Shown: positions 2,336 through 53,679 of the stretch, one piece after another
Numbering within the stretch: position 1 is the stretch's first letter
Layout: each line of letters starts with the position of its first letter
Source of the DNA: Candidatus Acetothermia bacterium
Lineage (GTDB): Bacteria > Bipolaricaulota > Bipolaricaulia > RBG-16-55-9 > JANLFV01
Length of the DNA stretch: 64,000 nucleotides
Assembly: GCA_024653345.1 (NCBI GenBank)
Contig: JANLFV010000005.1
Location: 64,790 to 128,789 of the forward strand
Reading direction: 5' to 3'
Made by a program: the position numbers and the translations under genes
The notes under the pieces: generated by a model
Database searches by the model: none
What the model was told of the DNA's origin: nothing
The model's input: only the letters and a program-made list of their open reading frames with translations

Positions 2336-3219
2336 TGCCCCTCCTTGAGCCTTTGGTAGATCCTCATCGCCGTCTCGAGCCCGTCCCCCACGGCGATCGC
2401 GGTCTGACGGAACGGCCCGCGCCGGACATCGCCCACGAGGTAGAGAAGCCCTCCGGCCTCGAGCTCCGCGAGCCTCCCCCGGAGCCCCGTGGCCAGATAG
2501 TCTAGCTGCGGGACCCGTCCGATGGCAAATATAGCGTAGTCGAGCTCGAGGGGCCAGCTCCTCCCCGGGCTGATTAGCCCGAGGCGGAGGCCCCTCGCGG
2601 AGCCCTTAGTCTCCGTGACCATAGTGTTCTCATGATAATGAATCCTCGGGCTGGCCCGGGCCCGCTCCCACAGCAGCGGGAGGCACCTCATCCTCCCGGA
2701 GCGGTTGAGGATGTGAACTTCATTCCCTCTCGAGGCGAGGTTGAGGGCGTAGTCGAAGGCCGCGTCCCCGGCCCCGACGACCCCGATCCTCGCTCCCGTG
2801 AGCTCACGAAGAGGGTAAACCTCGTAGAAGACTCTCCCCTTGGCCTCCTCGGGGATCGGGCAGTCGGTGAACTCCCTCGGCTTAGTCCCCGAGGCTAAGA
2901 CCGCGACCTTGGCGGTCAGCCGGCGCTCGTCGGTCTCGATCAGGAAGGCCCCGCCGCTATGGTCTAGCCGGCGGACCTCCTCGAAAGAGACCTGAACGCC
3001 GACCCGCTCGAGCTGCTCCGCAAAGAGCCGGACCAGCTCCTCGCCCCGGATCCCGCCGGGGAAGCCGGGGTAGTTTTCGACTAGGTTGGCATTCAGGAGC
3101 AAGCCGCCGACCCGCTCCCGCTCCAGAAGCAGCGGCTCGAGCCCCGAGCGCTTGAGCTGCAGGGCCGCGGCCAGCCCCGCCGGCCCGGCCCCGGTGATCA
3201 CGACTTCAGCCTTAGTCAT
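2332..3219 (-). CDS. FAD/NAD(P)-dependent oxidoreductase, thioredoxin-reductase fold
   Basis: A 295-residue two-dinucleotide-fold flavoprotein. The FAD motif VITGAGPAGLAAAL lies at the N-terminus, the NAD(P) motif IGVVGAGDAAFDYAL near residue 150, and the second FAD motif YLVGDVRRG near the C-terminus. The CxxC redox pair of true thioredoxin reductases is missing, which points to ferredoxin-NADP reductase-like or another electron-transfer role. The open frame extends upstream, but ATG at 3219 has a strong GAGGGGAAAGG site and matches the family N-terminus. It overlaps the isochorismatase gene by 8 bases. Confidence 0.8.
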   Translation of the reverse strand: MTKAEVVITGAGPAGLAAALQLKRSGLEPLLLERERVGGLLLNANLVENYPGFPGGIRGEELVRLFAEQLERVGVQVSFEEVRRLDHSGGAFLIETDERRLTAKVAVLASGTKPREFTDCPIPEEAKGRVFYEVYPLRELTGARIGVVGAGDAAFDYALNLASRGNEVHILNRSGRMRCLPLLWERARASPRIHYHENTMVTETKGSARGLRLGLISPGRSWPLELDYAIFAIGRVPQLDYLATGLRGRLAELEAGGLLYLVGDVRRGPFRQTAIAVGDGLETAMRIYQRLKEGQ

Positions 3220-3946
3220 CCTTTCCCCTCTCGAGCAGGGCGAGGAGCTCCTCGGCCAGCACGGGGTGGGCGAAGCCGTGGGCCAAATTGAGCAGGCTCG
3301 CCCGGTGGAAGGCCGCGTTGTAGCTGGCGGTCCCGTCGATGACAAAGAAGACCTCGAACCCGCGGACGAAGGCGGACCGGGCGGTCGTCTCGCAGCAGAG
3401 GTGGGCCATCACCCCCGAGATCGTGACTTGCTCTACCCCTCTCTCGCGGAGGAGCTGCTTCAGCGGGGTCTTGTAGAAGGCATCATACTGAGCCTTCTCG
3501 AGGATCAAGGGCTCCACACCTCGCCGGGAGGGCGCCATCTCCGCCCCTCCCCCTCGAGCTTGAGGGGGGAGGGAGCGGGTGGGGGTGGCGAAGAGCTCCG
3601 GGACCAGCTCGCTCAAGGGGTCCTCCCGCCTGAGCAGCTCCCGCCACCACTTGCCCATCTGGCCGGCATCCTCTTCGGTGTTGAGGTGCCGGGTGAGGAC
3701 CACCGGTCGGCCTCGCTCGGAGAAGGCTTCGATCAAGGCTTTCACCCTGGGGAGGATCGCCCCCGCGCTGGGGATGTAGGCATGCGAATCCTCCTCCAGG
3801 AAGTAGCGCTGCATGTCCAGGACCAGGAGGGCCGCCCGCTCGAGGCGGAACTCGAAGGGGTGCCGCTCGCGGAGGGGGAGGACGGACTCGAGCATCCCCC
3901 GGGCTTGGCGAGCAATGGATTCGCCGGTAAAGTAAGCTTCCTTCAT
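3212..3946 (-). CDS. isochorismatase-family cysteine hydrolase
   Basis: A 244-residue cysteine hydrolase. The triad is visible as Asp in LLVLDMQ (about residue 44), Lys in LEKAQYDAF and Cys in VMAHLCCETTAR. The cis-peptide region precedes the cysteine as in nicotinamidase/isochorismatase enzymes. Substrate is unknown. Residues about 119-139 (PTRSLPPQARGGG...) are low-complexity and are encoded by a copy of the dispersed palindromic repeat, an in-frame insertion before the catalytic lysine. The start has a GGGGAGAG site. Confidence 0.8.
   Translation of the reverse strand: MKEAYFTGESIARQARGMLESVLPLRERHPFEFRLERAALLVLDMQRYFLEEDSHAYIPSAGAILPRVKALIEAFSERGRPVVLTRHLNTEEDAGQMGKWWRELLRREDPLSELVPELFATPTRSLPPQARGGGAEMAPSRRGVEPLILEKAQYDAFYKTPLKQLLRERGVEQVTISGVMAHLCCETTARSAFVRGFEVFFVIDGTASYNAAFHRASLLNLAHGFAHPVLAEELLALLERGKDD
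3544..3588 (+). repeat. dispersed palindromic repeat inside a coding gene
   Basis: The run CCCCTCCCCCTCGAG plus its inverted partner CTTGAGGGGGGAGGG belongs to the same family as copies at 25486-25520, 25697-25781, 45014-45050 and 47990-48040. Here it is read in frame within the isochorismatase gene and adds about 20 residues. Confidence 0.55.
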
Positions 3947-3976: not shown

Positions 3977-4297
3977 CTAGCCGCCGGTCTCCCGCCAGAG
4001 CCAGGCCAGGTAATCAGGGTTGCCCTCGGCAATGGGCATAGCCAGGATCTCCGGGACCTCGTAGGGGTGCAGCTCCTTGATCCGGGCCTCGATCTTGGGG
4101 TAGTCGGCCGCCCGGGCCTTGATGAGGCAGAGCCACTCCCGGGCCTCCTCGAGCCTCCCCTTCCACCAGTAGTGGCTCTCGACCGGCCCGAGGAGCTGGA
4201 CGCAGCCTGCAAGCCGCTCAACGAGGACCCGCTCGGCCAGCTCCCTGGCCTTCTCTTCCGAATCGACGGCCGTGAGGACCTGGATGAACTCGCTCAT
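3977..4297 (-). CDS. cutA: CutA divalent-cation tolerance protein
   Basis: A 106-residue protein covering the whole CutA1 family: FIQVLTAVDSEEKARELA, LVERLAGCVQ, the Y/W-rich SHYWWKGRLEEAREW, IKELHPYEVPEI and a C-terminal YLAWL. CutA is a trimeric, very stable ferredoxin-fold protein linked to copper and other divalent-metal tolerance. It sits 6 bases after a 65-residue ORF and about 30 bases before the isochorismatase gene, all on one strand. Confidence 0.92.
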   Translation of the reverse strand: MSEFIQVLTAVDSEEKARELAERVLVERLAGCVQLLGPVESHYWWKGRLEEAREWLCLIKARAADYPKIEARIKELHPYEVPEILAMPIAEGNPDYLAWLWRETGG

Positions 4298-46279: not shown

Positions 46280-47830
46280 ATGAAACGGGGAGAGGCCAAC
46301 TTCAAGCGAGTGTCATCGTCCATCCTGCGTAGAGCGCTGCTCGGAGCCCTCTTGGCCGCGCTCATCGTCGGCTCCGCGGCGACGGTCGTGCTCACGCAGA
46401 CTGACATCTCCGCGATCGTCGAGCGGGTCCGGCCCGCGGTCGTGGAGATCGTGACCAACAAGGGCCAAGAGAGCGGGTTCATCATCACCGCGGACGGGGC
46501 GGTGCTGACCGCCTACCATGTGGTCAAGGGGGCGACCAGCATCAGGGTCCTCTTGCCGAGCGGCTCGAGCTACAGCGCCTGGGTGGAGAAATATGATGAG
46601 ACCTACACCAGCGGCGGCAGTGATGTGGCCCTGCTCCGGATCAGCGCGAGCGGCCTCCCCACGGTGAGCTTGGGAGATTCCGATACGGTCAAGATCGGGC
46701 AATCCATCATCGTCATGGGCTATCCCCTGGACATGGGGTTCAGCGTCACCAGGGGGATTATCAGCAGCCTAGTCGACTTCGGCGGGGGCCGGAAGGTCTT
46801 TGTGATCGACGCAGCCGTGAACCCCGGCAACAGCGGCGGGCTGCTCTTGAACGACCAGGGCCAGGTGATCGGGATCGTCTTCGGCAAGGCCAATGTCCCC
46901 GGGATCACGGTCGAGGGGATCAACTTCGCCACGCCCATAAACACCGCGCGGAGGGAGTTGGGGCTGAGCATGCCCGCGCCGGAGCAGCCGCCGACTACCC
47001 CGAGACCGGCAGGAATGGTGCTCATCCCCGCAGGGAGCTTCCAGATGGGGGACAGGTTCAGCGAGGGCGACTCCGACGAGCGGCCGGTGCACACGGTCTA
47101 TGTGAGCGCGTTCTATATGGACAAATACGAGGTGACCAAGGCCCTGTGGGACGAGGTGGCGCGCTGGGCTGCAGCTCATGGATACGACATCATGCCCGAG
47201 TGCGGCTCTGGGAAGGGGCCGGACCATCCGGTCTACGATGTCACCTGGTATGAGGTAGTGAAGTGGCTCAATGCCCGGAGCGAGAAGGAGGGGTTGACGG
47301 CCTGCTACTACACGGACAGCACGCAGCGGATGGTCTACCGGACGGGGAACCTGAACCTGTCGAATGATGCCGTGAAGTGGAGCGGGTGTGGTTATCGGCT
47401 GCCGACGGAGGCGGAGTGGGAGAAGGCGGCGCGCGGGGGCTGCGAGGGCCATCGCTTCCCCTGGCGCGATACGGACACGATCCAGCACAGCCGGGCGAAC
47501 TACTACAGCAGCTCCGACTACAGCTATGACACGAGCCCGACGCGGGGTTATCACCCCAGCTACGCCACGGGTGATTACCCGTATACCAGTCCGGTGGGGA
47601 GCTTTGCGGCAAACGGGTATGGGCTCTACGACATCGCGGGGAACGTGTGGGAGTGGGTCTGGGACCGGTATGACCGAAGCTACTACTCATCCTCGCCCGG
47701 GACTGATCCTCGGGGTCCTAATGGAGGCTCGTCCCGCGTGGTACGCGGCGGCAGTTGGGGCTACGATGCGCCCGCTGCCGGGTTGCGTATCGCGGCCACA
47801 GCACGCCCGGCGGCAGCGGCCACTTCATAG
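46280..47830 (+). CDS. DegP-type serine protease fused to FGE/lectin-fold variable domain (DGR-type target)
   Basis: 516 residues. An N-terminal membrane/signal segment (about residues 18-40) is followed by a trypsin-like S1C domain (about 42-235) with triad His in TAYHVVKG, Asp in SDVALLRIS and Ser in NPGNSGGLLL; no PDZ is seen. A linker leads to a formylglycine-generating-enzyme/C-type-lectin-fold domain (about 247-516: MVLIPAGSFQMGD, RLPTEAEWEKAARGG, YGLYDIAGNVWEWVWD, VVRGGSW). The C-terminus enters a hypervariable cassette. One base missing there shifts the frame and ends the protein early, before GFRAVRPAGQ, which is intact in the next frame. GGAGGGAGG precedes the ATG. Confidence 0.82.
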   Translation: MKRGEANFKRVSSSILRRALLGALLAALIVGSAATVVLTQTDISAIVERVRPAVVEIVTNKGQESGFIITADGAVLTAYHVVKGATSIRVLLPSGSSYSAWVEKYDETYTSGGSDVALLRISASGLPTVSLGDSDTVKIGQSIIVMGYPLDMGFSVTRGIISSLVDFGGGRKVFVIDAAVNPGNSGGLLLNDQGQVIGIVFGKANVPGITVEGINFATPINTARRELGLSMPAPEQPPTTPRPAGMVLIPAGSFQMGDRFSEGDSDERPVHTVYVSAFYMDKYEVTKALWDEVARWAAAHGYDIMPECGSGKGPDHPVYDVTWYEVVKWLNARSEKEGLTACYYTDSTQRMVYRTGNLNLSNDAVKWSGCGYRLPTEAEWEKAARGGCEGHRFPWRDTDTIQHSRANYYSSSDYSYDTSPTRGYHPSYATGDYPYTSPVGSFAANGYGLYDIAGNVWEWVWDRYDRSYYSSSPGTDPRGPNGGSSRVVRGGSWGYDAPAAGLRIAATARPAAAATS

Positions 47831-47871
47831 GCTTCCGGGCTGTGCGGCCTGCAGGTCAGTGAGGTGAGCTG
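47742..47871 (+). other. variable region 1 (VR1) with flanking conserved ends, DGR-type
   Basis: Identical 17-nt 5' flank (47742-47758, TACGCGGCGGCAGTTGG), hypervariable core (47759-47829), and a 42-nt 3' flank (47830-47871, beginning GGCTTCCGGGCTGTGCGG) identical to VR2. With one base restored the core reads SWGYDAPACRVAYRGHSTPG and then GSGHFIGFR, aligned to SWFIIASYCQVATRGGGAPG in VR2. The fixed residues are A, C, VA, RG and PG; the rest vary. Confidence 0.75.
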
Positions 47872-47892
47872 GAGTGAGGCGGAGCGGCTGGT

Positions 47893-47948
47893 TTCAGGTC
47901 GAGCAAGCGGAGCGGTCCCGTCCCGGAGGGCGGGATGCGAGACCTGAA
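47893..47948 (+). other. post-VR1 nested hairpin
   Basis: The outer stem TTCAGGTC / GACCTGAA (47893-47900 with 47941-47948) encloses the inner hairpin TCCCG-CCC GGA GGG-CGGGA (47916-47935, one bulged T). The same structure follows VR2 with a compensated base pair. The position 3' of the variable region matches hairpins at known DGR target sites. Confidence 0.6.
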
Positions 47949-47989
47949 GCGGTCGCGGAGCCGGCTGTTGGATCGTGAGCAAAGCGCCG

Positions 47990-48040
47990 CTCCCCCTCCC
48001 ATCGGATGGGAGAGGGAAGCCCACAGGGCCGGGTGAGGGC
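47990..48040 (+). repeat. dispersed palindromic repeat copy
   Basis: CTCCCCCTCCCATCGGATGG + GAGAGGG followed by GGGCCGGGTGAGGGC. The remaining gap to 48194 also has a GGCAGGTGTGCCTGCC stretch (48057 onward) that recurs as GGGCAGGTGTGCTTGCC at 48859. Confidence 0.5.
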
Positions 48041-48194
48041 CGCCGGGGCTGGCCGTCGGGCAGGTGTGCCTGCCATGACGGCAGGACACGCCCCAACGAG
48101 ATTGCGGCCTTTGATCGGCAGTGAAGGATGCAGAGCGCTCGTCCATCCCTTATAATGATTGTGCCGTCTCTAGGATCAACGGAAGGAGTAAGTG

Positions 48195-48392
48195 ATGGCA
48201 CGTCAAGCAAGTAAAACAGTCACATCCGAAGAGTCTCCTGCTGAGGTCGAGCGCAAGCTGAAAGCCCTCAAGGAAGTAGCCGGGTTGCTGAGCGACTTGT
48301 CTCCCGAGGGAATGAGGGCGTTCTTGGAAGCCGCCAAACGCAGGCCACTCTTCGAGGATGGGCCTTCCGAGAAATGCCAGACTACCTCTTAG
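48195..48392 (+). CDS. putative antitoxin upstream of a PIN toxin
   Basis: A 65-residue soluble, charged, helical protein (PAEVERKLKALKEVAGLLSD, LSPEGMRAFLEAAKRRPLF). No DNA-binding motif is obvious. Its 3' end overlaps the VapC start by 19 bases, the standard antitoxin-toxin order. GGAAGGAG precedes ATG 48195, and TATAAT at 48151-48156 is a possible -10 box. Confidence 0.65.
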   Translation: MARQASKTVTSEESPAEVERKLKALKEVAGLLSDLSPEGMRAFLEAAKRRPLFEDGPSEKCQTTS

Positions 48393-48778
48393 ATACGAAC
48401 ATTCTCATCGAGATCTTAAGAAACAGCCCCACCGTTCTGGCACATATGAGAGCGGCCATCACTGCCGGACGTGATGTGCAGATCAACGCCCTCAGCTATT
48501 ACGAGACCCGACGCGGCCTGCTTAACACTCTTAGAGCCGATAAGCTCCGCAAGTTCGACGCCTTTTGCCGGGTATTCGGGATCGTCCATCTCGATCAAGC
48601 AGCGCTGGATCGAGCCAGCGAAATCTACGCTGATTTGGAGAAGAAGGGCGAACTGATCGAGGATGCTGACATTCTCATCGCCGGGATGGCACTGGTCAAC
48701 CACGCTGTGCTGGTGACCGATGACATAAGCCATTTCAAGCGCGTGGTTGGCTTGGCGCTCGAAAACTGGATGAAATAG
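48374..48778 (+). CDS. vapC: VapC-type PIN-domain ribonuclease toxin
   Basis: A 134-residue PIN domain: first acidic cluster YLLDTNILIEILR, second acid in NALSYYETRRGL, and the C-terminal acids in LIEDADILIAGMA and LVTDDISHF. It is a predicted endoribonuclease acting on tRNA, rRNA or mRNA. Paired with the small upstream ORF. Confidence 0.88.
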   Translation: MPDYLLDTNILIEILRNSPTVLAHMRAAITAGRDVQINALSYYETRRGLLNTLRADKLRKFDAFCRVFGIVHLDQAALDRASEIYADLEKKGELIEDADILIAGMALVNHAVLVTDDISHFKRVVGLALENWMK

Positions 48779-48901
48779 GAATCGCTCTCGCCTCAAGTAG
48801 TCAGGATCGCACGGTCAATCCCGGCGATCACCCCTGGAACCGGCCTGGGGTGCGCGATGGGCAGGTGTGCTTGCCGTAAACGGGCAAGGCCTTGATATCC
48901 C

Positions 48902-48930
48902 TTGCCCCACTTTACTTCATCAACTATAAT
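48902..48930 (+). promoter_or_regulatory. promoter of the RelBE-like pair
   Basis: TTGCCC (48902-48907), 17-base spacer, TATAAT (48925-48930), about 36 bases before the antitoxin ATG. Confidence 0.6.
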
Positions 48931-48966
48931 GCTCAACGGACGATCCGACACAAGGTGAGGATGGCG

Positions 48967-49176
48967 ATGCTGAAGATCAAGAAGCGCTACGTCGTCAATG
49001 AGCGCAACGAGCCCGTGGCCGTGCAGCTTGATCTGGAAACCTTCGCCAAGATCGAGCGCCTGCTGGAAGACTATGCCCTGGGGCAAAGCATAAGAGCAGT
49101 CAAAGACGAACGCTCCCTGGATTTGAGAGAGGCCCAGCGGCGCTATGCGCGCCTGAAGAAAACCGGCAATGAATGA
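48967..49176 (+). CDS. RelB/Phd-type antitoxin
   Basis: A 69-residue protein, MLKIKKRYVVNERNEPVAVQ followed by LDLETFAKIERLLEDYALGQ and an Arg/Glu-rich C-terminal helix. It matches Phd/YefM- or RelB-like antitoxins that begin with a short beta-strand DNA-binding unit. AAGGTGAGG is 6 bases before ATG 48967, while the upstream ATG 48961 touches that site. Its stop overlaps the toxin start (ATGA). Confidence 0.75.
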   Translation: MLKIKKRYVVNERNEPVAVQLDLETFAKIERLLEDYALGQSIRAVKDERSLDLREAQRRYARLKKTGNE

Positions 49177-49451
49177 ACTGGCAAGTTGTCTATAAGCCCA
49201 CCTTCCTTAGGGAGTTGGCACGACTCCCAGCGGAGGTGCGCGCACGGGTTGAGACCTTTGCTTTTGAGGTGATGCCCAGGACAACCAATCCCTATGCTCT
49301 GTCAGGCGTCGAGAAGCTCAAAGGGTATCGGGAATATTACAAAGTGCGTTTCGGAGACTATCGTATTGGCCTCAGGTTCGACAAGAAAGCCAAGACAATC
49401 GAATTCTGCAGAGTCTTACATCGCCGTGATCTGTATCGTTACTTCCCTTGA
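49173..49451 (+). CDS. RelE/ParE-family toxin
   Basis: A 92-residue RelE-fold protein: WQVVYKPTFLRELARLPAEV, RTTNPYALSGVEKLKGYREY, the core YKVRFGDYRIGLRFD, and the C-terminal VLHRRDLYRYFP. RelE members cut mRNA on the ribosome and ParE members poison gyrase; the C-terminal HRRDLYR favours RelE. Translationally coupled to the antitoxin. Confidence 0.87.
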   Translation: MNWQVVYKPTFLRELARLPAEVRARVETFAFEVMPRTTNPYALSGVEKLKGYREYYKVRFGDYRIGLRFDKKAKTIEFCRVLHRRDLYRYFP

Positions 49452-49457
49452 TATAAT
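49449..49457 (+). promoter_or_regulatory. extended -10 promoter of mnmA (TGATATAAT)
   Basis: The box ends 9 bases before ATG 49467 and sits on the last codon and stop of the RelE-like gene. The mRNA would be essentially leaderless. Confidence 0.55.
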
Positions 49458-49466
49458 CTCGCTGTG

Positions 49467-50534
49467 ATGCGCGTCCTGGTGGCGATGAGCGGTGGGGTCG
49501 ATTCAAGTGTCGCGGCCCTCCTGCTCAAGAGGGAAGGGCACGAGGTCCTCGGCGCGACCCTGAACCTCTGGAGCTACGCCGGGCGGCTCGAACCCTACAA
49601 CAACTGCTGCTCCCTCGAGGTCGCGGCCGTAGCCAAGCAGTTGGGCATCGAGCACCATTTCCTAGATTATGGCCGGCTCTTCGAGCGGGAGGTCGTCCGC
49701 CGGACGATTCAGAAATATCTGCGCGGGCGGACCCCGAACCCCTGCATCTGGTGCAACGCGCTCGTCCGGTTCCCCGCGCTGTTGGCCGAGGCCGAGCGGC
49801 TGGGCTGCGACTACCTCGCCACCGGGCACTATGCCCGGGTCATCAAAGAGAACGGAGTTCATCACCTCCTCCGCGGCCGCGACCTCGAGAAGGACCAGTC
49901 TTACTTCCTCTACCGGCTCACCCAAAGGGAGCTCGCCAAGCTCATCTTCCCTGTCGGGGATTATCTCAAGGAGGAGGTCTTCACCATTGCCAAGGAGTCC
50001 GGCCTCCTGGTCAAGCCCCGTGAGAGCCAGGACCTTTGCTTCGTCCCTGATAACGACTATCGCCGGTTCTTGCTGGACCACTCCAGGGACGGGATCCGGC
50101 CGGGCGAGATCGTCGATACCTCGGGCCGGGTCCTGGGCCGGCATGAGGGGCTCCCATTCTATACCATCGGCCAGCGGCGGGGCCTGGGGCTCGCCTCGGG
50201 CGAGCGGCTCTATGTCCTGGCCCTCGAGCCCGAGCGGAATAGGCTGATCGTCGGCCCGGAGGAGGCCCTCTACTCCCGCGGCCTGATCGCCTCGGAGGTC
50301 AATTGGCTCGGCGGCCCGCCCGGCGCGGGCGAGCTTGAGGTCGAGGTCAAGGTCCGCTATCGCACCCCTCCGGCGAGGGCGCGGGTCGAGCCCCTCGGCG
50401 ACGGCCGGGCGCGGGTCATCTTCGCCGAGCCGCAGCGGGCCATCACCCTCGGCCAGGCGGCCGTCTTCTATCGGGACGAGCGGGTCCTCGGCGGTGGGGT
50501 GATCGAGAGAATCTTGAGCGATGCTGAGGCTTAG
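49467..50534 (+). CDS. mnmA: tRNA-specific 2-thiouridylase
   Basis: 355 residues. PP-loop VAMSGGVDSSVAALLL, catalytic cysteines in TPNPCIWCN and SQDLCFV, LATGHYARV, and GRHEGLPFYTIGQRRGLG. It thiolates U34 of Lys, Glu and Gln tRNAs. ATG 49467 is chosen over GTG 49464. The upstream gene's TGATATAAT leaves almost no leader. The 3' end overlaps the ABC ATPase by 14 bases. Confidence 0.94.
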   Translation: MRVLVAMSGGVDSSVAALLLKREGHEVLGATLNLWSYAGRLEPYNNCCSLEVAAVAKQLGIEHHFLDYGRLFEREVVRRTIQKYLRGRTPNPCIWCNALVRFPALLAEAERLGCDYLATGHYARVIKENGVHHLLRGRDLEKDQSYFLYRLTQRELAKLIFPVGDYLKEEVFTIAKESGLLVKPRESQDLCFVPDNDYRRFLLDHSRDGIRPGEIVDTSGRVLGRHEGLPFYTIGQRRGLGLASGERLYVLALEPERNRLIVGPEEALYSRGLIASEVNWLGGPPGAGELEVEVKVRYRTPPARARVEPLGDGRARVIFAEPQRAITLGQAAVFYRDERVLGGGVIERILSDAEA

Positions 50535-51273
50535 CGGGATCGAGAAGGGCATCCTCCGGAATGGCCTCCCCCTCAAGGTCCTCGCCGGGCTCGACCTCGA
50601 GGTCGGGGAGGGGGAGTTCGTCTCGCTCCTCGGGCCGAGCGGCTGCGGGAAGACGACCCTACTCAACATCGTCGCCGGGCTCATCCGGCCCGACTCGGGG
50701 CGGATCTTCTTCAACGGGCGGGAGGTCTCGAGCTGCCGCGGCCATGTAGCCTACATGCAGCAAGACGACCTTCTCTTGCCCTGGCGGACGGCCCTGGAGA
50801 ACGCCATTCTCGGGCCGGAGCTGAAGGGGGCCGATCTCCACCGGGCACGGCACGAGGCCGAGGGGCTCTTCCACCGCTTCGGGCTCGAAGGCTTCGAGGA
50901 CCACTACCCCGCGGAGCTCTCGGGCGGGATGCGCCAGCGGGTGGCCCTGATCCGGACCTTGCTCACCGGGAAGAGGCTCTTCCTCCTCGATGAGCCCTTC
51001 GGCTCGCTCGATGCCATGACCCGCTCCGTCCTCCACCGCTACCTCCTCGGGGTCTTTGAGGAGTTCGAGAAGACGATCCTCTTCGTCACCCACGACCTGG
51101 AGGAGGCCCTCCTCCTCTCCGATCGGGTCTATCTTCTCACCGCCCGGCCCGCCCGGGTCAAGGCCCTCCTCGAGGTCCCGCTCCCCAGGCCGCGGGACCG
51201 CGGAGAGCCCAGGTTCATCCGGCTGGAGCGGGAGCTCGAGCGCTTGGTCCAGGAGGAGCTCCATGTGGCCTAA
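50521..51273 (+). CDS. ABC transporter ATP-binding protein (nitrate/sulfonate/pyrimidine type)
   Basis: 250 residues. Walker A LLGPSGCGKTTLLN, Q-loop YMQQDDLLLPWRT, signature LSGGMRQRVALIRTLL, Walker B LFLLDEPFGSLDAMT and H-loop VTHDLEEALLLSDRV. It is of the SsuB/TauB/ThiZ importer group. It overlaps mnmA and the permease gene. No substrate-binding protein is encoded next to it, so the substrate is unknown. Confidence 0.9.
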   Translation: MLRLSGIEKGILRNGLPLKVLAGLDLEVGEGEFVSLLGPSGCGKTTLLNIVAGLIRPDSGRIFFNGREVSSCRGHVAYMQQDDLLLPWRTALENAILGPELKGADLHRARHEAEGLFHRFGLEGFEDHYPAELSGGMRQRVALIRTLLTGKRLFLLDEPFGSLDAMTRSVLHRYLLGVFEEFEKTILFVTHDLEEALLLSDRVYLLTARPARVKALLEVPLPRPRDRGEPRFIRLERELERLVQEELHVA

Positions 51274-52021
51274 GGCTCGAGATTACCTCCCTCCGCTCGG
51301 GCTCCTCCTCGCCCTCTTTGGGCTCTGGGAGCTGGTGGCCTGGCGGCTCGAATTGCCCTTCATCCTCCCCGCCCCGAGCGCGATCTTCATCAGGATGGCC
51401 TCGGACTGGCTCCTCCTCCTCCGCCATGCCTTAGTGACGCTTGAGGAGGTCCTCTTGGGGCTCGCGATCGCCTTTATTTTCGGGCTCGCCCTGGCCTTGC
51501 TCATCTTCCACTCCAAGACCCTCGAGCGGGCCATCTATCCCCTGGTCATCGCCGTCCAGAATGTCCCGGTCTTCGCGATCGCCCCGATCCTGGTCCTCTG
51601 GCTCGGCTATGGCCTCTTCTCGAAGGTGGCCGTGGCCGCGTTGATCATCTTCTTCCCGCTGGTGGTGAACACCGTCGACGGGCTTCGCTCGACCGATCGC
51701 GGGCTCGTGGACTTATTCAGGGTGCTTGAGGCCAGCCGGGGCCAGCTCCTCCTCAAGCTCCATTTGCCCCACGCACTACCGTTCATCCTCTCCGGCTGCA
51801 AGGTCGGGGTCACCCTCGCGGTCGTCGGCGCTGTCATTGGCGAGTGGGTCGGCTCGAACGCCGGCTTAGGCTTCCTGATGGTCCAGGCGAACGCCCGGCT
51901 CAAGATTGATCTTCTATTTGCGGCCATCTTCTGGCTCGCGGCCCTGAGCATCGCGCTCTTCGGCCTCGTCTCAGCCATCGAGCGGGCGGCGCTGCCGTGG
52001 CGGAGGGTTGGACAGGGATGA
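51263..52021 (+). CDS. ABC transporter permease (SsuC/TauC/ThiX type)
   Basis: 252 residues with about six membrane helices: LPPLGLLLALFGLWELVAW, LPFILPAPSAIFIRM, ALVTLEEVLLGLAIAFIFGL, and the coupling EAA-loop region (LRSTDRGLVDLFRVLEASRG...LPHALPFILSG) followed by VVGAVIGEWVGSNAGLGFLM. ATG 51263 with AGGAGG is the start; the longer frame is read-through of the ATPase gene. It lacks an adjacent binding protein. Confidence 0.9.
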   Translation: MWPKARDYLPPLGLLLALFGLWELVAWRLELPFILPAPSAIFIRMASDWLLLLRHALVTLEEVLLGLAIAFIFGLALALLIFHSKTLERAIYPLVIAVQNVPVFAIAPILVLWLGYGLFSKVAVAALIIFFPLVVNTVDGLRSTDRGLVDLFRVLEASRGQLLLKLHLPHALPFILSGCKVGVTLAVVGAVIGEWVGSNAGLGFLMVQANARLKIDLLFAAIFWLAALSIALFGLVSAIERAALPWRRVGQG

Positions 52022-52040
52022 GCAGAAGCGAGCTGCTACT

Positions 52041-52070
52041 TTGTCAGGGAAGAGGAGAGTGTGCTATGAT
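52041..52070 (+). promoter_or_regulatory. promoter upstream of the second FGE-fold gene
   Basis: TTGTCA (52041-52046), 18-base spacer, TATGAT (52065-52070) with TGC before it. About 165 bases of leader follow with no recognised structure. Confidence 0.55.
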
Positions 52071-52238
52071 GACTTTGTCGCCCGTTCTGGCTGAAGTGGG
52101 CCGGGAGAGGGCCAGGCAGAGAGGGTTGAAGCGCTAGCGGTAAAGTTCATCCCTTTGTGGCGGCAGACTTAAGACACAACTGGAGTGAAGCTCCCTTCCT
52201 TCCCCGCCCGAGCCCGTTGGGCCGCAAAAGGAGGTTCT

Positions 52239-52473
52239 ATGCGCATCGCAAAGCTTATCGGGACCGGCGCGGCCTTGGGGCTTCTAGCCCTTCTCATCTT
52301 AGCTGCGGGGGAATGGCAGACAAAGTGGGTTAGCCCAGGGTTGCACCGTTAATTCTGTCATCTGTTTGGCTGAGGGCAGTTGGCAGGAGAACCTCACGAT
52401 CAGAACGGACAACCTGATCATGCGTGGGCAGGGACCCAGCCGGACCTTCGTGACTGGTTCGTTCCTGATTTAA
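52239..52473 (+). pseudogene. broken N-terminal part of the second FGE-fold gene
   Basis: AAAAGGAGG precedes ATG 52239, which encodes a signal peptide (MRIAKLIGTGAALGLLALLI, LAAG). At the GGGGG run 52307-52311 the frame must shift by one base to continue as GLAQGCTVNSVICLAEGSWQ and ENLTIRTDNLIMRGQGPSRT, the start of a right-handed beta-helix. That frame meets TAA at 52471-52473 and then runs on in frame into the FGE domain. Two lesions, or sequencing errors, separate the signal from the rest. Confidence 0.55.
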
Positions 52474-53316
52474 GTGGCCGGCCAATTCACTGTGGAAAGC
52501 CTGACTCTCCAGAGTAGTGTGGCCGGGGCAGCGCCGTCAGGGATGGTGCTGATCCCGGCGGGGAGCTTCGAGATGGGGGACAGCTTCGGCGAGGGGGACC
52601 CCGACGAGCGGCCCGTGCACAAGGTCTTTGTGAGCGCGTTCTACATGGACAAGTATGAGGTGACCAAGGCCCTGTGGGACGAGGTGGCCAACTGGGCGGC
52701 GGTGCACGGCTACGACATCGGGCCGAGTAGCGGTTCAGGAAATGGGGCAAACCACCCGGTCACCGACGTGTCGTGGTATGAGGCGGTGAAATGGGCCAAT
52801 GCGCGTAGTGAGAGGGAAGGCTTGACGCCGTGCTACTACACCAGTTCAAGCCAATCCACGGTCTACCGGACGGGGGGTGTGGATGTGCCGATAGAGTGCG
52901 TGAAGTGGAGTGGGTGCGGGTGTCGGTTGCCGACGGAGGCGGAGTGGGAGAAGGCCGCAAGAGGCGGCTTATCAGGCCAGCGCTACCCGTGGGGCAATGA
53001 CATCGACTGTGCGAGAGCCAATTACTACCCTTGCGTTGGTAACACGACCCCGGTGGGGAGCTACCCGCCTAATGGGTATGGGCTCTACGACATGGCAGGG
53101 AACGTGTGGGAGTGGGTGTGGGACTGGCACGACTCGGGTTATTACTCGCGTTCGCCGGAGGCTGACCCCCGTGGCCCGGCGTCGGGCTCGTTCCGCGTGT
53201 TACGCGGCGGCAGTTGGTTCATCATCGCGTCCTACTGCCAGGTTGCGACTCGCGGCGGCGGCGCGCCCGGCCGCGCCTGCATGGGCTTCCGGGCTGTGCG
53301 GCCTGCAGGTCAGTGA
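52474..53316 (+). CDS. FGE/C-type-lectin-fold protein with hypervariable C-terminus (DGR-type target)
   Basis: 280 residues from GTG 52474. A short beta-helix-like lead (FTVESLTLQSSVAG) is followed by an FGE-sulfatase-fold domain (MVLIPAGSFEMGD, ERPVHKVFVSAFYMDKYEVT, RLPTEAEWEKAARGG, YGLYDMAGNVWEWVWDW, VLRGGSW). The C-terminal cassette is intact in frame and ends GFRAVRPAGQ. It is the paralogue of the domain at 47.0-47.8 kb. In DGR target proteins this fold displays variable ligand-binding residues rather than acting as an enzyme. Export depends on the damaged 5' part, so it may be inactive. Confidence 0.75.
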   Translation: MAGQFTVESLTLQSSVAGAAPSGMVLIPAGSFEMGDSFGEGDPDERPVHKVFVSAFYMDKYEVTKALWDEVANWAAVHGYDIGPSSGSGNGANHPVTDVSWYEAVKWANARSEREGLTPCYYTSSSQSTVYRTGGVDVPIECVKWSGCGCRLPTEAEWEKAARGGLSGQRYPWGNDIDCARANYYPCVGNTTPVGSYPPNGYGLYDMAGNVWEWVWDWHDSGYYSRSPEADPRGPASGSFRVLRGGSWFIIASYCQVATRGGGAPGRACMGFRAVRPAGQ

Positions 53317-53325
53317 GGTGAGCTG
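53201..53325 (+). other. variable region 2 (VR2), DGR-type
   Basis: The 5' flank 53201-53217 is identical to that of VR1, the core is 53218-53283, and the 3' flank 53284-53325 is identical over 42 nt. Against VR1 the core has a two-codon gap and changes in 14 codons, with the third base kept in nearly all of them. Confidence 0.75.
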
Positions 53326-53340: not shown

Positions 53341-53395
53341 TTCCGGTCGAGCCAGCGGAGCGGTCCCGCCCGGAGGGCGGGAGGCGAGACCGGAA
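53341..53395 (+). other. post-VR2 nested hairpin
   Basis: Outer stem TTCCGGTC / GACCGGAA (53341-53348 with 53388-53395). Perfect inner hairpin TCCCGCCC GGA GGGCGGGA (53364-53382). The fourth outer pair is C-G here and A-T after VR1, a compensatory change. Confidence 0.65.
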
Positions 53396-53440
53396 GCGGA
53401 CGCGGAGCTGGGGCTTTCGCCTCGTGAGGACAGCGCCCTA

Positions 53441-53582
53441 GATAGGTGCACAGAATAATTGAACAGGGGGCCACCTGTCGTGGCATGATGGGTCATTCCT
53501 CTTGCCCGGCCCTGGGCAGGTCTACCGGGAGCTGGAGCGCTCCCCGCGCTAAGGGCCCCCTGTCCAATCATCTTGTGCTATC
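53441..53582 (+). mobile_element. IS630-derived miniature element (MITE-like)
   Basis: 142 bp flanked by TA (53439-53440 and 53583-53584). The first about 55 bp match the left end of the IS630 element at 5911, including GATAGGTGCACAGAATAATT. The last about 80 bp match its right end, including the transposase tail codons GQVYRELERSP and TGTCCAATCATCTTGTGC. The transposase interior is deleted. Confidence 0.85.
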
Positions 53583-53679
53583 TAAATAAGTGAAGAGGCT
53601 CTCTAACATCATCGGATAAGCAGAAGAGAAGAGGTGGGTTATCCCGACTCTACCCAGCCCTTGTGGTTGAGCAAAGCGC

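Follow-up and report, generated by a model that had tools for sequence, protein, structure and literature searches.

Two FGE-fold genes end in unlike cores set between identical flanks in the window analysed here (the whole stretch of 64,000 nucleotides, G000:C27:64790-128789), which raises the question of whether these cores were written by a diversity-generating retroelement (DGR) and whether such an element is still present. DGRs are bacterial systems that randomise chosen letters in their own genes. The source assembly, G000, is of 1.71 Mb in 31 contigs and is 92% complete. The features to which the text refers are listed below.

46280..47830, + strand: gene 1, with a trypsin-like peptidase domain (residues 65-199) and an FGE-sulfatase domain (244-508) (Pfam PF13365, PF03781; alignment with gene 2)
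47742..47758, + strand: 17-nt 5' flank of variable repeat 1, identical to 53201-53217 (sequence identity)
47759..47829, + strand: variable-repeat core 1, 71 nt, with a 1-nt deletion after 47770 (alignment)
47830..47871, + strand: 42-nt 3' flank 1, identical to 53284-53325; candidate initiation-of-mutagenic-homing (IMH) site (identity; function inferred)
47860-47862, + strand: ancestral stop TGA of gene 1, within 42-nt 3' flank 1
47893..47948, + strand: hairpin/cruciform 1, outer arms TTCAGGTC / GACCTGAA
47963..47988, + strand: putative decayed trace of a displaced FGE terminus (GGCTgTtGgaTCGTGAGcAaAGCGCC), less convincing than that at 53412 (sequence)
52239..52542, + strand: disrupted N-terminal region of gene 2 (tblastn against the unbroken homologues of G044:C55 and G059)
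52474..53316, + strand: gene 2, a 280-aa open frame with an FGE-sulfatase domain (Pfam; AlphaFold2 mean pLDDT 89)
53201..53217, + strand: 17-nt 5' flank of variable repeat 2 (sequence identity)
53218..53283, + strand: variable-repeat core 2, 66 nt, in frame (alignment)
53284..53325, + strand: 42-nt 3' flank 2, candidate IMH site (identity; function inferred)
53341..53395, + strand: hairpin/cruciform 2, outer arms TTCCGGTC / GACCGGAA
53412..53435, + strand: displaced FGE terminus (coding for GFRLVRTA elsewhere), outside gene 2 and 3' of the hairpin (identical to the genuine C-terminal end in G013; likewise arranged in G069)

Two further elements were seen around these genes. Between them, at 48187-49451, lie two small toxin-antitoxin-like pairs (PIN-like and RelE/ParE-like, judged by eye), and directly 3' of the displaced terminus, at 53440-53583, there is a 144-bp MITE-like element with imperfect terminal inverted repeats of ~30 bp (AGATAGGTGCACAGAATAATTGAACAGGGGGCC / GGGCCCCCTGTCCAATCATCTTGTGCTATCT).

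Flanks, cores and fold

The preliminary description had claimed identical flanks of 17 and 42 nt around unlike cores of 71 and 66 nt, and these were recovered exactly. The register of the cores was restored by opening a 1-nt gap behind the GCG of core 1 that ends at 47770, upon which variable repeat 1 reads W GYDA(x)RCRVAYRGHSTPGGSGHFIGFR and variable repeat 2 reads WFIIASYCQVATRGGGAPGRACMGFR. With this gap 13 comparable codons differ and the third base is unchanged in 11 of them, as had been described. The core differences fall at codon positions 1, 2 and 3 in the numbers 10, 9 and 2, while those of the gene bodies (228 codons, 74-75% identity) number 47, 36 and 91. The contrast between 19:2 in the cores and 83:91 in the bodies (positions 1 and 2 against position 3; p = 1e-4) indicated that the core pattern was not ordinary drift. 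FGE paralogues of other phyla were also considered as a negative control for the codon pattern; they proved unclean, as many of them themselves look DGR-written.

The 42-nt match sits within a longer homologous 3' stretch, with the hairpin region 88% identical, and is thus no isolated island. Between the two genes, the third base is identical in 35 of 37 codons in the repeat and flanks and in 137 of 228 in the body. However, the body of gene 1 is no closer to gene 2 (74-75%) than to its homologue in G069, a genome of another family (76%), and the identity across the 42-nt flank is found between the two window genes only, indicating that the gene ends were homogenised within the window genome. 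A shared template would explain this homogenisation. Furthermore, the near-zero divergence of the repeats outside adenine sites places homing recently relative to the split of the genes, which would sit better with machinery that was present until recently.

In both genes the variable repeat lies at the 3' end of a C-type-lectin/FGE-fold gene, as judged from Pfam and fold matches, and a 3' site is common to the two targets (the 42-nt identity), its IMH function being putative. The AlphaFold2 model of gene 2 (mean pLDDT 89) had as its top structural match in VIA-align 2 the DGR variable protein TvpA (PDB 2y3c; Z 32.3, rmsd 2.2 over 244 residues), with which it shares the FGE/C-type-lectin fold. 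Catalytic FGEs ranked after TvpA in this comparison and some of them ranked first by Foldseek; the phage DGR protein Mtd was also among the matches. Unlike the window genes, the gene of TvpA is intact and its host species has complete DGRs.

Comparison with templates of class relatives

FGE DGRs were found in three genomes of the same class, G062, G031 and G044, with targets homologous to the window genes. In G062:C66 the target is accompanied by an HRDC gene, a reverse transcriptase (RT, 2908-3912) and a template (3985-4078); in G031:C32 the cassette is the same except for its variable repeat. On G044:C54 the target lies with an HRDC-like frame, part of an RT and a template consisting mostly of AAC codons. 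These loci resemble the window genes in their targets (~60-70% identity), in the register of variable codons and in an AAT at the same place. Both window cores have a T-ending codon at one variable position only (TAT, ACT), and this position is AAT in the G044 and G062 templates. However, the relatives retain HRDC, template and RT (the last only in part in G044), and none of the three was found in the window genome.

Of the 24 sites that are adenine in the G044 template, the window cores differ at 17, compared with 4 of the 53 remaining sites (Fisher p = 2.6e-8); for the G062 template the counts are 16 of 23 and 5 of 54. Both templates come from other families. When the G044 template was shifted along the cores, the matches fell from 17 to 2-14. 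Three of its four non-adenine exceptions have an A in one copy, so that a single one (T vs C) is not derivable from adenine. The earlier proposal that the core differences trace to adenines of one common template was therefore upheld with the templates of relatives. Together with the hairpin shared by the two genes (see below) and the TvpA-like fold, these templates back the DGR origin of both cores, which we regard as well supported by the sequence comparisons.

Two side observations concern related loci. The DGRs of G031:C32 (L142) and G062:C66 (L141) are nearly identical, but G031 has no hairpin 3' of its variable repeat, either because it was truly deleted or because the palindrome collapsed in assembly. 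FGE genes from Verrucomicrobia, an Akkermansia-named MAG, Kiritimatiellae and KSB1 (L072, L079, L085, L096) have variable regions of nearly all AAC (WNNNANN...), as if unmutated or freshly reset to the template.

Missing machinery and broken genes

The G000 assembly, 92% complete, gave no match to PF00078 and none to the DGR RT of G062. Searches of G000 for a template repeat with two patterns and the 3' flank returned only the two variable repeats and no AAC-rich copy, and the HRDC protein of G044 had no match in the window genome, in a search that had no positive control. No HRDC or RT remnants were found 3' of the window genes, and the same-genus genome G001 (73% complete) had neither an RT nor an FGE match. 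RTs of the same-order genomes G002 and G010 were examined as candidates; the one on G002 C85 reads as group II intron-like, judging from its sequence, has no template nearby and was not counted as a DGR. The preliminary description had held that a DGR would be contradicted either by the lack of a template repeat or a DGR-type RT in the complete genome or by core differences foreign to the adenines of one template. The former is what the assembly presents, so that an active DGR was not supported here, whereas the adenine explanation of the cores stands. Given the 92% completeness, the absences refute an active DGR in the assembled part but not the origin of the pattern.

Furthermore, the genes themselves are broken. 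The frame of gene 1 stops early at 47828-47830 as a result of the 1-nt gap inside its variable repeat, a point absent from the preliminary description. In gene 2, a signal-peptide frame from 52239 stops at 52350-52352 and the N-terminal segment continues in another frame, where a TAA at 52471-52473 stands in place of a Gln of the homologues (tblastn; intact in G044:C55 and G059). A third FGE gene (C28:75819-76684) is frameshifted. The deletion in gene 1 falls in a C run and could be a run-length error, whereas the nonsense codon of gene 2 is not such an error; ten other window genes gave full-length family matches, indicating that the breaks do not reflect general sequence error. With all three candidate targets broken and the machinery absent, the targets look like leftovers, and the breakage points to a relict. 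A similar decay may recur elsewhere: G069 carries what seem to be the first HRDC codons (MDMRVVTLRYQ; L150 3966-4020) 3' of its hairpin, followed by unrelated sequence, as read by eye and not recovered by tblastn, and is perhaps a truncated DGR. This short HRDC-like start and the partial RT of G044 suggest that FGE-type DGRs may decay repeatedly.

Hairpin and displaced gene end

A GC-rich inverted repeat lies 3' of the stop codon in both window genes, with modest fold z-scores (-1.65 and -1.93). The inner hairpin motif, AGCGGTCCCG-N(0-3)-CGGAGGGCGGGA, had four matches in 100 genomes of the window organism's class, all of them 3' of an FGE variable repeat: in the two window genes, in G069 and in G062, where it stands beside an intact RT. 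The outer stems of the window hairpins are unlike each other and that of G062 is an unrelated paired stem, indicating that pairing is kept while the sequence changes. The motif was not found in the viral contigs searched. One viral contig (L199) with a 20-mer of the 3' flank had no FGE sequence around it and was taken as a chance match.

In BPP-1, homing requires a hairpin/cruciform (PMC3240598). The window genes share with it a GC-rich inverted repeat shortly 3' of the variable repeat, in which the stem letters are free if pairing is kept (PMC3240598). However, the window hairpins, at ~55 nt and with two tiers, are much larger than that of BPP-1, and their apical loop is not the 4-nt GRNA of phage DGRs. 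The hairpin was probably the recognition mark for homing.

The 24-mer GGCTTTCGCCTCGTGAGGACAGCG (up to 3 mismatches) forms the C-terminal coding end (GFRLVRTA or near) of FGE genes in six genomes of the class, whereas its copies in G069 and in the window (53412) are found outside the gene, past the hairpin. The simplest reading is an insertion, ahead of the old gene end, of a new tail that brought its own stop and hairpin. We also entertain, as a speculation that we would not expect to hold, that the 3' module (new C-terminus, stop and hairpin) is a transferable address tag, which would have been inserted at a conserved GGCTTYCG site of an FGE gene, pushing the old end downstream and making the gene rewritable by a DGR elsewhere in the cell or community. 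On one viral contig (L288, IMGVR_UViG_3300035659_001580), the opening part of an FGE gene with 69% identity to gene 2 accompanies frames resembling a DNA methylase and a terminase small subunit, so that a mobile carrier of such targets is conceivable.

Origin of the cores

We consider it probable that the two genes are leftover targets of a DGR that has since been lost, or, less likely, lies unassembled, and that their cores were DGR-written. The RT would have copied a template RNA, placing random bases opposite adenines, and cDNA from one shared template would have taken the place of the 3' end in each of the two FGE-fold genes, so that their flanks and non-adenine sites stayed alike, with the hairpin just 3' of each repeat as the probable recognition mark. 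RT, template and accessory gene would later have been lost, and the targets would now be decaying. The concordance with adenine sites of the relatives' templates, the gene breaks, the absences from the assembly and the association with the hairpin were observed directly, whereas loss, as opposed to non-assembly, is a likelihood: the DGR loci of relatives break contigs (G062:C66 ends 72 nt past its template), and the assembly is incomplete and in many contigs. A DGR still present in the organism, absent from the assembly or acting from a mobile element or another replicon, is accordingly a serious though less probable alternative. The 92% completeness, the recent homogenisation of two gene ends and the short DGR contigs of relatives, which end at repeats, are all in its favour, and trans-acting DGRs have been discussed for Thiohalocapsa (PMC10907252). 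However, every candidate target in the genome (3/3) is broken, RT, HRDC and template left no trace in the assembly (for HRDC in the search lacking a positive control), and the same-genus G001 is likewise without RT or FGE match.

An origin without any retroelement, by ordinary duplication followed by 3'-end gene conversion and positive selection on a surface loop, seems very unlikely to us. Gene conversion alone could yield identical flanks, and FGE C-termini are variable in other phyla too, but conversion would have homogenised the cores as well, selection does not explain the constant third base in 11 of 13 changed codons, and the agreement with adenine columns in other genomes' templates would be left unexplained. 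Least credible of all is chance similarity or an assembly artefact: the genome is a metagenome assembly and the gap of gene 1 lies within a C run, yet the 17- and 42-nt flanks are exact, and hairpins and a matching anatomy are present in several independently assembled genomes.

Relation to known systems

Stranded DGR targets are a kind already known. Isolates of Treponema denticola have leftover targets whose repeats differ from the template of relatives mostly at adenines, in a genome with neither RT nor template repeat (TR), and the intact loci there have an HRDC accessory gene (PMC4891356). The present case differs in that the targets are frameshifted or truncated, the templates come solely from other families, and the host is an uncultured Bipolaricaulota relative. 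Candidatus Bipolaricaulota was among the named relatives in the closest FGE-search matches, and in the literature searched we found no paper connecting DGRs with Bipolaricaulota. What is new here is the hairpin common to both genes and the displaced gene end beyond it. The finding adds DGR-written genes for a little-studied phylum and shows the remains of a decaying DGR. A large survey stated that its own approach would miss DGR targets without a neighbouring RT (PMC8144416); the near-exclusive link between the hairpin and the FGE variable repeat offers a sequence tag for finding such remote or stranded targets.
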